In this document: one piece after another, positions 9,652 to 23,816 of the stretch
Numbering within the stretch: position 1 is the first letter of the stretch
How the letters are laid out: each line of letters starts with the position of its first letter
Source of the DNA: a virus
IMG/VR virus record: IMGVR_UViG_3300025889_000837
Span: 1-26,089 of that record
Direction: 5' to 3' (one strand)
Length of the DNA: 26,089 nt
Position numbers and translations under genes: made by a program
Notes under the pieces: generated by a model
The model's database searches: none
What the model saw: the letters and a program-made list of their open reading frames with translations, nothing else
Told to the model about the DNA's origin: nothing

Positions 9652-9737
9652 GGGCGTGTGCCGGAATTGGTCTACGGAACTGACTTAAAATCAGTCGGAC
9701 TGTAAAGTCCTTGCGGGTTCAAGTCCCGCCATGCCCA
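9652..9737 (+). tRNA. tRNA-Leu (anticodon UAA)
   Basis: The acceptor stem pairs GGGCGTG (9652-9658) with CATGCCC (9730-9736), with A9737 as discriminator. The anticodon stem ACTGA/TCAGT encloses loop CTTAAAA with anticodon TAA at 9686-9688. A long variable arm (GGACT-GTAA-AGTCC), typical of class II tRNA-Leu, and a T arm GCGGG-TTCAAGT-CCCGC complete the cloverleaf. The 3' CCA is not encoded. It decodes UUA (and UUG), frequent in this AT-rich genome, and may boost translation of phage genes in a more GC-rich host. Confidence 0.96.
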
Positions 9738-17998: not shown

Positions 17999-19912
17999 AT
18001 GGCCGTTAACAAGAACTTTGTAGTCAAGAATGGCGTAGAGGTTTCAACAGACCTCATTTACGCTGAAAGTACCATTGACAAGGTTGGCATTGGTACGACC
18101 ACACCAGGGGCCAAACTTGAAGTTATTGGAGATATTATTGGTGTAGGTCTCACTCTAACAGGTGGTCTTACTGGTACAGATGCCAATTATTCTGGTATTG
18201 TTACCGCAAATATTGGTCTAAAAGTTGGTTCAGGTGGAACATCAATTCATGTTGATGTTACTAACAATAGTATTGGTTTTAATTCCACATCACCAGATAC
18301 TAATTTTGTCTTAGATGTTCAACCAGGTGTTGCTCAATCGGCAGCTACTCTTGGTGGATCTCTTGATGTAAAAGGAAATGCTTGGATCAATGGTAATCTG
18401 AAAGTAAATGGTGCAATTGATGGTTCTATTACAATTAATTTGAACAATCCTGTCATCACTGGTGTTGTAACTGCAACTGATGCAGAAATTTACAAACAAT
18501 TTGATATTATTAACAATGGTAATATTGCCTATCAATTTCAATCAACTGGTATTGGATTTACACAAAACATAGATGATCCAACTTTATTCTTGAATAGAGG
18601 TGAAAAGTATCATTTCAATGTAAATGCTATTGGGCATCCATTCTATATTAAAACCACTAGAAGTACTGGTTCTGGTGACCAATATACAGCTGGTGTTACA
18701 AATAATGGTACTCAGGTAGGGGTTGTTACTTTCTATGTTCCATATAATGCACCATCTGAACTCTTCTATCAGTGTGGTGCTCACTCTGGAATGGGTAACA
18801 CCATGTATGTGCTTAAAGATTCAACATCTGGTGTTTCCACAGAAACATTTGTAACTGAAAATCTGAATGTTACTGGTGTAGCTACAATTGGATATGTTAA
18901 TTCATCAGGAATTGTTGTAACTGGTATTGTTACTTCTACTACTTTTGATGGAAACTTAACTGGTAATGTAACTGGTAATGTTACTGGAACTGCTGGTGGG
19001 CTTACTGGAACTCCAAACATTATAGTATCAAATGTAACTGCTGGTATTGTAACTGCTACATCATTCAATGGATCTTTGACAGGTAATGTAACTGGTAATT
19101 TAATTGGCAATGCAGATACTGCAACTACAGCAACTAATGTAACTATTGCAGATGAGAGTTTAGATACTTCTTGTAATGTTCTCTTTGTTACAGCAGCAAC
19201 AGGTAACTTACCACCTAAAACAGGATCTAATTTAACTTTTAATTCTAGTAATGGTACATTAACTGCCACAACATTTAGTGGCAACTTAACTGGTAATGCA
19301 GATACTGCAACTAATGCAACAAACATTACTCTTGCAGATGAAAGTGTTGATACCACTTGTTTCCCTATATTTGCTACAGATGCAACAGGAAACCAAGCGC
19401 CAAAAACTGATGTAAGTACTTTAACTTACAATGCTTCAAACGGTACACTTTCAGCAACAACGTTTAGTGGAACTGCAACTAATGCAACAAACATTACTCT
19501 TGCAGATGAAAGTATTGATACCACTTGTTTCCCTATATTTGCTACAGATGCAACAGGAAACCAAGCGCCAAAAACTGACTCTAGTGCTTTAACTTACAAT
19601 GCTTCTACAGGTCAATTGACTGCTGTAGATTTAAATGCAACTTCTGATATCAATTTAAAGAAAGATATTGAAGTTATTACTGATGCCACTGGTTTAATTA
19701 AACAACTAAATGGTGTTAGATTTACTTGGAAAGAAAATGATAGAAAATCTCTTGGTGTCATTGCACAAGAAGTAGAAGAGTTATTGCCTGAACTTATTTC
19801 TGAAAGAACAGACACTGGAACTAAATCCGTTAATTATAATGGTTTAGTTGGTGTTCTGATTGAAGCAGTGAAAGAACTCTCTGCAAGAGTTGATGAATTA
19901 GAAAAAAGATAA
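17999..19912 (+). CDS. Tail fibre with cupredoxin-like insert and C-terminal S74 autocleaving chaperone
   Basis: This 637-aa protein opens with NKNFVVKNGVEVSTDLIYAE and VGIGTTTPGAKLEV, standard fibre N-terminal modules. At about 190-275 is a cupredoxin-like domain with His213, Cys259, His262 and Met265. Residues about 300-545 are repeats containing LTGNVTGN and ADESxDTxC modules; one 56-aa unit is nearly duplicated at DNA level. The C-terminus is a peptidase S74 intramolecular chaperone: TSDINLKKDI with Ser549 and Lys554, then GVIAQEVEELLPELI and a coiled-coil end VKELSARVDELEKR. S74 domains trimerise beta-helical fibres and then cut themselves off at the Ser, releasing here about 89 residues. 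AGAGG lies 5 bases before the ATG. It probably forms a receptor-binding fibre. Confidence 0.88.
   Translation: MAVNKNFVVKNGVEVSTDLIYAESTIDKVGIGTTTPGAKLEVIGDIIGVGLTLTGGLTGTDANYSGIVTANIGLKVGSGGTSIHVDVTNNSIGFNSTSPDTNFVLDVQPGVAQSAATLGGSLDVKGNAWINGNLKVNGAIDGSITINLNNPVITGVVTATDAEIYKQFDIINNGNIAYQFQSTGIGFTQNIDDPTLFLNRGEKYHFNVNAIGHPFYIKTTRSTGSGDQYTAGVTNNGTQVGVVTFYVPYNAPSELFYQCGAHSGMGNTMYVLKDSTSGVSTETFVTENLNVTGVATIGYVNSSGIVVTGIVTSTTFDGNLTGNVTGNVTGTAGGLTGTPNIIVSNVTAGIVTATSFNGSLTGNVTGNLIGNADTATTATNVTIADESLDTSCNVLFVTAATGNLPPKTGSNLTFNSSNGTLTATTFSGNLTGNADTATNATNITLADESVDTTCFPIFATDATGNQAPKTDVSTLTYNASNGTLSATTFSGTATNATNITLADESIDTTCFPIFATDATGNQAPKTDSSALTYNASTGQLTAVDLNATSDINLKKDIEVITDATGLIKQLNGVRFTWKENDRKSLGVIAQEVEELLPELISERTDTGTKSVNYNGLVGVLIEAVKELSARVDELEKR
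19304..19410 (+). repeat. 107-bp direct repeat, copy 1
   Basis: Identical to 19472-19578 except for one base (the G of GTGTTG here versus A there). The period is 168 bp (56 codons), in frame within the fibre gene. A third, diverged protein-level copy lies upstream at about 19135-19260. Confidence 0.95.
19472..19578 (+). repeat. 107-bp direct repeat, copy 2
   Basis: Second copy of the repeat at 19304-19410, with a single mismatch that changes Val to Ile in the encoded module. Such close identity suggests recent in-frame duplication or ongoing gene conversion in the fibre shaft. Confidence 0.95.
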
Positions 19913-22619: not shown

Positions 22620-22654
22620 CTCAATGTTAAATAGTAACAACAGGAAAAGTGTGT

Positions 22655-22966
22655 ATGTTGTCAACACAATACCGACTTCGGTTAGAGTTTATTTGTAAAT
22701 GTATTGCAAATGGAGAAGAAGTAAAACTTGAAGAGATGATATGGGCAGAAAAATTATCAAAAGCCAATACAACTGCCCGTGAAATGCTCAAGAAAGCAAG
22801 ACGACAATCTTCAGGTATTGAAGACGGAAGTATGGATGATTTTTTGAATAGAATGGGATTAGGAGATCCTGATCCATCTAATCATAAAACTGGATTTGAT
22901 TCTGCAGATGATGTTGCTGATTGGTTTAAGAGAGATAATTCGGAGGACTGGAGAACACGTGATTAG
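22655..22966 (+). CDS. Conserved hypothetical protein, 103 aa
   Basis: Start chosen at ATG 22655, 8 bases after AGGA (22642-22645 region); a GTG two codons upstream is less likely. The N-terminal two thirds are helical (QYRLRLEFICKCIANGEEVK, then LEEMIWAEKLSKANTTAREM), and the C-terminus is acidic with the block MDDFLNRMGLGDPDPSNHKT. I recall this as a conserved cyanophage protein of unknown function. It is the last gene before the homing endonuclease insertion; its reading frame is not disrupted. Confidence 0.7.
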   Translation: MLSTQYRLRLEFICKCIANGEEVKLEEMIWAEKLSKANTTAREMLKKARRQSSGIEDGSMDDFLNRMGLGDPDPSNHKTGFDSADDVADWFKRDNSEDWRTRD

Positions 22967-22981
22967 TTAAGAGGCATCAAG

Positions 22982-23049
22982 TGTAGTCAGGGGTGATAAA
23001 ACTTGTGTAAGTCCTCATATAAATAAAAGTAATCATACCCCTGATTACA
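22982..23049 (+). promoter_or_regulatory. Leader inverted repeat with late promoter in its loop
   Basis: TGTAGTCAGGGGT (22982-22994) pairs over 13 positions (one G-T) with ACCCCTGATTACA (23037-23049), which ends right at ATG 23050. The 42-base loop holds the late promoter TATAAATA. A second, shorter hairpin, GTAATCA (23029-23035) with TGATTAC (23042-23048), competes for the same right arm. Confidence 0.7.
23018..23025 (+). promoter_or_regulatory. Consensus T4-type late promoter, TATAAATA
   Basis: Perfect TATAAATA 24 bases before ATG 23050. By T4 spacing the late transcript would start at about 23031, after the left arm of the long hairpin, so late RNA cannot form that stem. Confidence 0.78.
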
Positions 23050-23679
23050 ATGAACGAATACTACACTTACGCATATTTGCGAGAAGACGGAACTCCTTAC
23101 TATATTGGTAAAGGTAAAGAAAACCGAGCATATTCTAATAAAAGAAAGATAAAACCACCAAAAGATAAAAATAGAATACTAATTTTAAAACAAAATCTTA
23201 CAGAAAAAGAATCGTTTAATCACGAAATTTATATGATTTTTATTTTTGGTAAAAAAACAAATGGGGGTATTCTTTATAATATTACTGATGGTGGTGAAGG
23301 AGTTTCTGGAATGAAACATACAGATGATAGTAAAGAAAAAATAGGTAAAGCATTTAGAGGTAAAAAACTAACACCTGAACATATAGAAAAATTGAGAAAA
23401 TCAAAGTTAGGTAATACTTGGAATAGAGGAAGAGTAGTTCCTCAATCTCAGAGGGAAAAGATTAGACAAACTATGTTAGGTGTAAAACACACACCAGAAC
23501 GCAGAAAAAACCAAAGTTTAGCAAAGTTGGGAGTAAAACATTCTCCTGAAAGAAATTCTAAAAAATCCTTGACAAACACTGGAAAAAAGTGGTATAATAA
23601 TGGCAAGGTAAATAAGTTTTGTAATGAGTGCCCTGATGGATTTGTTGTTGGTATGATTAAAAGGAGACAAAGAGATTAA
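23050..23679 (+). CDS. GIY-YIG homing endonuclease with NUMOD3 repeats
   Basis: The 209-aa protein has a GIY-YIG nuclease domain: YTYAY (residues 5-9), YYIGKG (17-22), Arg26, Glu59 (HEIYMI) and Asn77 (LYNITDGGEG), all at positions expected for catalysis. C-terminal to it are NUMOD3-type DNA-binding repeats (KHTDDSKEKIGKAFRGKKL, LTPEHIEKLRKSKLG, GVKHTPERRKN, GVKHSPERNSKKS) and a terminal motif KKWYNNGKVNKF with CNECPDGF. Such free-standing enzymes cut a site in related genomes lacking the gene and spread by repair, like the T4 Seg proteins. No intron is evident. No strong Shine-Dalgarno site precedes the ATG. The Lys-rich, A-rich coding sequence stands out from its neighbours. Confidence 0.92.
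   Translation: MNEYYTYAYLREDGTPYYIGKGKENRAYSNKRKIKPPKDKNRILILKQNLTEKESFNHEIYMIFIFGKKTNGGILYNITDGGEGVSGMKHTDDSKEKIGKAFRGKKLTPEHIEKLRKSKLGNTWNRGRVVPQSQREKIRQTMLGVKHTPERRKNQSLAKLGVKHSPERNSKKSLTNTGKKWYNNGKVNKFCNECPDGFVVGMIKRRQRD
23569..23598 (+). promoter_or_regulatory. Perfect sigma-70 promoter inside the endonuclease gene
   Basis: TTGACA (23569-23574) and TATAAT (23593-23598) both match consensus exactly with an 18-base spacer. It lies within codons 174-183 of the homing endonuclease and points to the run of small genes from 23679 onward. Confidence 0.78.
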
Positions 23680-23816
23680 TGACAAAACGACAATGGGAAG
23701 AAGTTGAAGCAATTGTCCGTAAAGAACAAGAAAAAGCATTACAACACTTTAACTCTAAACGTTACAATGAACTTTCTGACATTCTAGATAATCTTTACGA
23801 CTTGGCACATAGTTAA
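23679..23816 (+). CDS. Small charged helical protein, 45 aa
   Basis: ATG 23679 overlaps the endonuclease stop (TAATG); the frame ends TAA 23814-23816. The sequence MTKRQWEEVEAIVRKEQEKA plus LQHFNSKRYNELSDILDNLY is one continuous charged helix pair. AAGGAG at 23661-23666 lies 12 bases before the ATG. No known domain; the function is unknown. It is probably transcribed from the promoter at 23569. Confidence 0.65.
   Translation: MTKRQWEEVEAIVRKEQEKALQHFNSKRYNELSDILDNLYDLAHS

Follow-up and report, generated by a model that had tools for sequence, protein, structure and literature searches.

The question raised by this locus is whether the leader of a homing endonuclease gene (HEG) distinguishes RNA entering from upstream from RNA begun at a late promoter within the leader itself. 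Sequestering leaders that contain a late promoter precede I-TevI, I-TevII, I-TevIII, segB and e in phage T4, and mobE in phage Aeh1 (PMC2988022, PMC3014915). The initial annotation had proposed a leader resembling those of e and I-TevI, with a 13-bp inverted repeat around a late promoter. The tail and baseplate genes and the cyanophage relatives of the window, the whole stretch of 26,089 nucleotides that we analyzed, identify it as part of a T4-like cyanophage.

The endonuclease gene and its leader in the window

The predicted protein matched family phrog_314 in PHROGs (1.1e-12), and the motif YTYAYLR..PYYIGKG is visible in it. NUMOD3 was detected with a score slightly below its cut-off, the match to solved GIY-YIG proteins was weak, and the Pfam GIY-YIG model gave no match to this protein. 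By family match and motif, the gene is a GIY-YIG homing endonuclease gene, for which cleavage and homing are predicted. There were 72 relatives of the endonuclease in IMG/VR. Relatives without the HEG at this locus also had no leader, and their homology to the window ends a few bases from the stop codon of the phrog_507 gene. Because other small genes occupy the site in these relatives, the insertion boundary is only approximate.

Table 1. Features of the leader and the adjacent genes in the window
Feature	Positions	Strand	Remarks
phrog_507 gene, upstream host gene	22649-22966	+	retained in HEG-free relatives
Pa 5' strand, GAGGC	22971-22975	+	pairs with 23011 (G) and 23013-23016 (CCTC); 23012 bulged
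Pb 5' strand, CAAGT	22978-22982	+	partner is ACTTG, 23001-23005
Pc 5' strand (left arm), TGTAGTCAGGGGT	22982-22994	+	within the Pb loop
Pb 3' strand, conserved unpaired G-UAA, G (partner C22975), bulged T, Pa 3' strand CCTC	23001-23016	+	
Late promoter motif, TATAAATA	23018-23025	+	reported cyanomyovirus late promoter consensus is NATAAATA (PMC2984593)
Late RNA start, predicted	23031	+	sixth base past TATAAATA, from T4 late promoters
Second, competing hairpin, 7 bp	23029-23048	+	GTAATCA 23029-23035 with TGATTAC 23042-23048
Pc 3' strand (right arm), ACCCCTGATTACA	23037-23049	+	abuts the start codon
GIY-YIG type homing endonuclease gene with NUMOD3 motif	23050-23679	+	209 aa; phrog_314

The inverted repeat is present as annotated (Pc in Table 1), with 12 Watson-Crick pairs and one G.U pair, arms that are 42 nt apart, and a right arm that ends directly before the ATG at 23050. 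The best Pc helix had a score of 31, whereas dinucleotide shuffling of the 100 nt preceding the promoter gave a mean of 14.8 and a maximum of 27 in 2000 replicates. The late promoter lies between the arms, as had been described, and the second hairpin also claimed for this leader was found; relatives keep it in a shorter form, GUC/GAC, with weak covariation. The initial annotation overlooked an enclosing hairpin (22971-23016) that holds the left arm in its loop. Because Pc links this loop to a downstream strand, crossing Pa and Pb, the predicted fold of the leader is a pseudoknot. Base 22982 has a possible partner in either Pb or Pc.

The position of TATAAATA leads us to expect a late start near 23031, which would give an RNA with a 19-nt 5' UTR. 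There was no motif resembling a Shine-Dalgarno sequence before the ATG in the window. Late-promoter motifs are also found further upstream in the window, at 19910, 22373 and 22628.

Conservation and covariation in type A leaders

We collected leaders of this type, termed type A, from relatives of the endonuclease and from pattern scans that were independent of the endonuclease. Approximately 70 distinct type A leaders, from cyanophage contigs and the isolates S-SRM01 and S-B05, follow one plan. The order is the Pa 5' strand, a single A, the Pb 5' strand, the Pc 5' strand in the Pb loop, and the Pb 3' strand, followed by R-UAA, a G that pairs with the C of Pa, a bulged base, the Pa 3' strand, the late promoter motif, the Pc 3' strand, and the ATG.

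Compensatory changes in relatives, which the initial annotation had put forward as a check of the pairing, were seen in all three helices. All five Pa pairs were present in 70 of 70 leaders, with compensatory variation in the outermost two, and four of the five Pb pairs had changes on both sides. At least six Pc cores were found (for example CTTGGCG, CTGGGGA, CAGGGGT, CCTGGCA, GCGGGGG and TAGGGGT), each with its downstream match. Invariant in 69 of 69 aligned leaders were GGC, TAAG, CC and one G in Pc. In the alignment as a whole (A1), the structure was paired in 92.7% of cells and 15 of 22 pairs had changes on both sides; when the registers were slid by 1-3 columns, pairing dropped to 30-45%.

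The A1 leaders were chosen partly for the presence of Pc, so a scan specifying only the ends of Pa is a cleaner test. This pattern gave 52 distinct matches that had the late-promoter motif, and a Pc of at least 9 bp preceded the ATG in 50 of them; of the two exceptions, L171 is a truncated contig and L204 is apparently a chance match. Pairing in matches without the motif was at most 10 bp, and these were either chance-like or instances of a hairpin described further on.

The internal mismatches in Pc indicate the strand on which it acts. There were 17 G.U mismatches (8 in type A and 9 in the type B leaders described below) and a single A.C, in type A; the sequences are related, and the counts are therefore not fully independent. 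A DNA palindrome would yield both kinds equally, and the large excess of G.U therefore argues for functional pairing in the plus-strand RNA. The conserved unpaired bases, an A opposite RUAA, go beyond the needs of simple sequestration, and this internal loop may stabilize the fold or be a binding site for another component. A further pairing, between the conserved GUAAG of the leader and CTTACGC in the coding sequence (an inverted repeat), was rejected, as changes in the coding sequence in L014, L017 and L060 were uncompensated.

The Pa/Pb hairpin motif (GGGCA, stem, loop, stem, RUAAG N CCC) also occurs without a late promoter, at L210:10965-11075, L181:5584, L192 (-) 6438 and L067:3883. These copies apparently lack Pc, have the conserved loop GTGGTTAC, and form a tandem pair in L210. 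The promoterless hairpin may represent a general RNA element of cyanophages, from which the type A leader arose. The same internal-loop motif is present in a hairpin, GTGGGCATCAATTTTCGACTGATTGTGTAAGTCCCAC, at L152:5834 and in L153, L187, L213 and L172 (the sequence in L172 differs), and a short ORF (MSQV.KRKGLAR..) lies directly 3' of it.

Promoter position, type B leaders and downstream genes

Across type A leaders, TATAAATA or a close variant was located between the Pc arms, and in 69 of 82 leaders 9-11 nt separated TATAAATA from the Pc 3' strand. If transcription starts 6 nt past the motif, by analogy with T4, the late RNA is predicted to begin just 5' of the Pc 3' strand, and most type A leaders would give it a 16-19-nt 5' UTR. 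We compared the predicted cost of opening the region from -15 to +13 in read-through and late RNA, using a nested folding program by which the pseudoknot is not scorable. Type A leaders had a mean cost of 11.4 kcal/mol for read-through RNA, falling to 3.4 kcal/mol for late RNA, and the values for type B were 12.8 and 3.8 kcal/mol, compared to 7.5 and 5.1 kcal/mol for control ORFs with late promoters. A leader nearly identical to that of the window (L001) had predicted costs of 9.6 and 2.1 kcal/mol. In the late RNA, ACAAUG is left free by a small 5'-terminal hairpin. Few leaders had a Shine-Dalgarno-like motif (type A, 9 of 83; type B, 2 of 74), compared to 80 of 291 other late-promoter ORFs.

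Endonuclease genes without a type A leader often have a second kind, type B, in which the sequences differ and the logic is the same. Its order is a late-promoter motif, 4 nt, a TGCY hairpin with the Pc 5' strand in its loop, an intrinsic terminator, a late promoter, the Pc 3' strand, and the ATG. We scanned for type B using the terminator and second promoter only (at least 120 contigs). Among the matches listed, 76 were distinct and readable; nearly all of these had a long Pc, almost all were followed by ORFs recognizable by sequence as endonucleases, and in 74 of the 76 the first promoter motif (NATAAATA or NCTAAATA) was exactly 4 nt 5' of the hairpin. Pc was present in 52 of 53 collected type B leaders, with 46 distinct arms. 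Tandem late-promoter motifs thus flank the hairpin and terminator (for example, L339:213-311 (-) and L312:1812-1921), a layout that predicts a short terminated RNA of ~55-60 nt complementary to the downstream start region.

The genes downstream of type A leaders are varied. They include the GIY-YIG family of the window and a second GIY-YIG family (L159, L216), several HNH types (L075; L160 and L192; L150; L182 and L209), proteins that we read by eye as PD-(D/E)xK-like and that had no Pfam match (L092 at 5310, L165), and NUMOD-bearing remnants (L134, L146). Most of the PHROGs families that matched downstream genes are named homing or HNH endonucleases. Because these are unrelated endonucleases (GIY-YIG, HNH, and probably PD-(D/E)xK), the leader is a shared cassette, and together with its endonuclease gene it behaves as a single mobile cassette. 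The site 3' of the phrog_507 gene (22966-23680 in the window; also L006, L075, L079, L080 and L093) is an insertion hot spot that contains a GIY-YIG or an HNH endonuclease gene depending on the phage, each with a type A leader.

In the collected contig DNA, we surveyed all ORFs that have a late-promoter motif. Long sequestering stems accompanied 91 of 98 endonuclease-like ORFs and 31 of 322 others. We checked 20 of these 31, and at least 14 were endonucleases as well. A stem was lacking at some HEGs of the same family despite a late-promoter motif (L027, L030, L035, L042, L058, and two in S-SRM01), indicating that the switch is not obligatory. Whole-record searches gave zero to two type A leaders per phage. 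The isolate S-B05 has two, one of them ahead of an annotated homing endonuclease gene, and the genome of S-SRM01, a phage that infects Synechococcus sp. KCZYC6, combines a type A leader (77575-77666) with two type B leaders and the stemless HEGs.

Neither leader family matches Rfam. The only Rfam match in the window was a tRNA, and representative loci had only sub-threshold, chance-like matches. Two exact leader patterns had no match in 84,980 prokaryote genomes, and no earlier report of the leader was found in the literature searched, which took in only a minority of subscription papers. Type A and B leaders are outside the described RNA families; the T4-style logic itself was already known. 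The window also contains a tRNA gene, at 9652-9737 within the tail gene region.

A proposed switch by transcript origin

We propose that the leader is a cis-acting switch that responds to the origin of the transcript, and that it probably works like the T4 switch. RNA entering from upstream would carry Pa, Pb and Pc, and the loop of the Pa/Pb hairpin would pair with the 12-15 nt just 5' of the start codon, so that ribosome loading on read-through RNA would be blocked. RNA begun at the late promoter, which sits between the Pc strands, would have only the Pc 3' strand in its 16-19-nt 5' UTR; its start region would be open, and the endonuclease would therefore be made. Three points in this proposal are inferred: formation of Pc in vivo, a late RNA start near 23031, and a difference in translation between the two RNAs. 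The initial annotation had assigned such a leader the role of limiting early expression. Discrimination by transcript origin is retained from this proposal. The distinction between early and late is not clear, because the late-promoter motifs upstream of the gene mean that the read-through RNA could itself be late, and the switch would select by origin and not necessarily by time.

The c4 antisense RNA of phages P1 and P7 (RF01695) acts in trans, and its hairpin loops are complementary to a start region downstream on the same strand. The cyanophage leader has this same arrangement, and a short RNA containing the Pc 5' strand could act similarly, as a same-strand antisense RNA that damps the late endonuclease mRNA. 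Such an RNA could arise by processing, by termination past the hairpin or, in type B, from its own late promoter. The Pc 5' strand is displayed in a loop in both types, and the type B promoter ahead of the hairpin, together with the terminator, predicts such an RNA. We consider trans action unlikely: in type A, to which the window leader belongs, only 17 of 83 leaders had an upstream TAAATA, and the T-run after Pa was inconsistent. In addition, there was no match to the Rfam c4 model in the window or representative loci, the leader resembles c4 in neither sequence nor structure, and c4 has no late promoter between the pairing partners. A broader scheme, in which cyanophage HEGs of unrelated folds use two portable leader families, A and B, as cassettes that recombine with nucleases, and in which the left half (of B, and perhaps of A) is also freed as a trans-acting same-strand antisense RNA, is possible but doubtful.

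The repeat flanks the late promoter, and the operator for I-TevI autorepression overlaps the I-TevI late promoter (PMC2988022), so the arms could be a DNA operator bound by the endonuclease. However, the same arm cores are found ahead of GIY-YIG, HNH and other nuclease types, and the arms diverge with compensation and with G.U rather than A.C mismatches, making an operator very unlikely. The hairpin could instead serve mainly to terminate transcription of the upstream gene, with an incidental match to the start region. There is a canonical terminator in type B, and TTTT follows some type A hairpins; yet the T-run is inconsistent in type A and missing in the window, and termination would not need the Pc arms, which covary. 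We find this explanation highly improbable as well. Finally, a conserved pseudoknot that abuts the start codon of a nuclease gene might be a guide or cofactor RNA, like the omega RNA beside IscB (HEARO). We give this almost no credence: the leader is common to unrelated nuclease types, the promoter divides the RNA, and the HEARO/omega RNA models of Rfam had no match at the gathering threshold in the window or representative loci.

The preferred reading, a cis-acting switch, can be compared with known phage systems. As in T4 I-TevI, I-TevII, I-TevIII and segB and Aeromonas phage Aeh1 mobE (PMC2988022), the late promoter is inside a long-range pairing; in those genes the pairing closes the HEG start region on early and middle RNA, a likeness that is predicted here. 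Those leaders are simple local hairpins over a Shine-Dalgarno sequence, whereas the cyanophage leader is a covarying pseudoknot without one and is common to several nuclease families. The T4 gene e leader (PMC3014915) is similar in that the initiation region is folded in long transcripts and the 5' strand is absent from late ones; unlike the cyanophage leader, it is a simple stem, and it belongs to a late lysis gene (lysozyme) that is not mobile. The T4 analogy of the initial annotation holds for the mechanism, but the structure differs and a Shine-Dalgarno sequence is absent. The CfrI antisense RNA of cyanophage S-PM2 (PMC2984593) is likewise tied to a cyanophage HEG, but is ~225 nt, is on the opposite strand, and spans psbA and the endonuclease gene.

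The hairpin switches in T4 are single cases, whereas the proposed switches described here are conserved RNA families with strong covariation. The families span T4-like cyanophages and GIY-YIG, HNH and other nucleases, and are found almost only at endonuclease genes. This distribution implies strong and repeated selection against read-through expression of selfish endonucleases, and suggests that regulatory leaders have moved between unrelated mobile genes. At several HNH and GIY-YIG genes (L004:169, L102:14037-14408 (-), L168:718-1182 (-) and L122:2738), a late promoter lies within a sequestering hairpin of a different, simple kind; these are further independent arrangements of the same logic.
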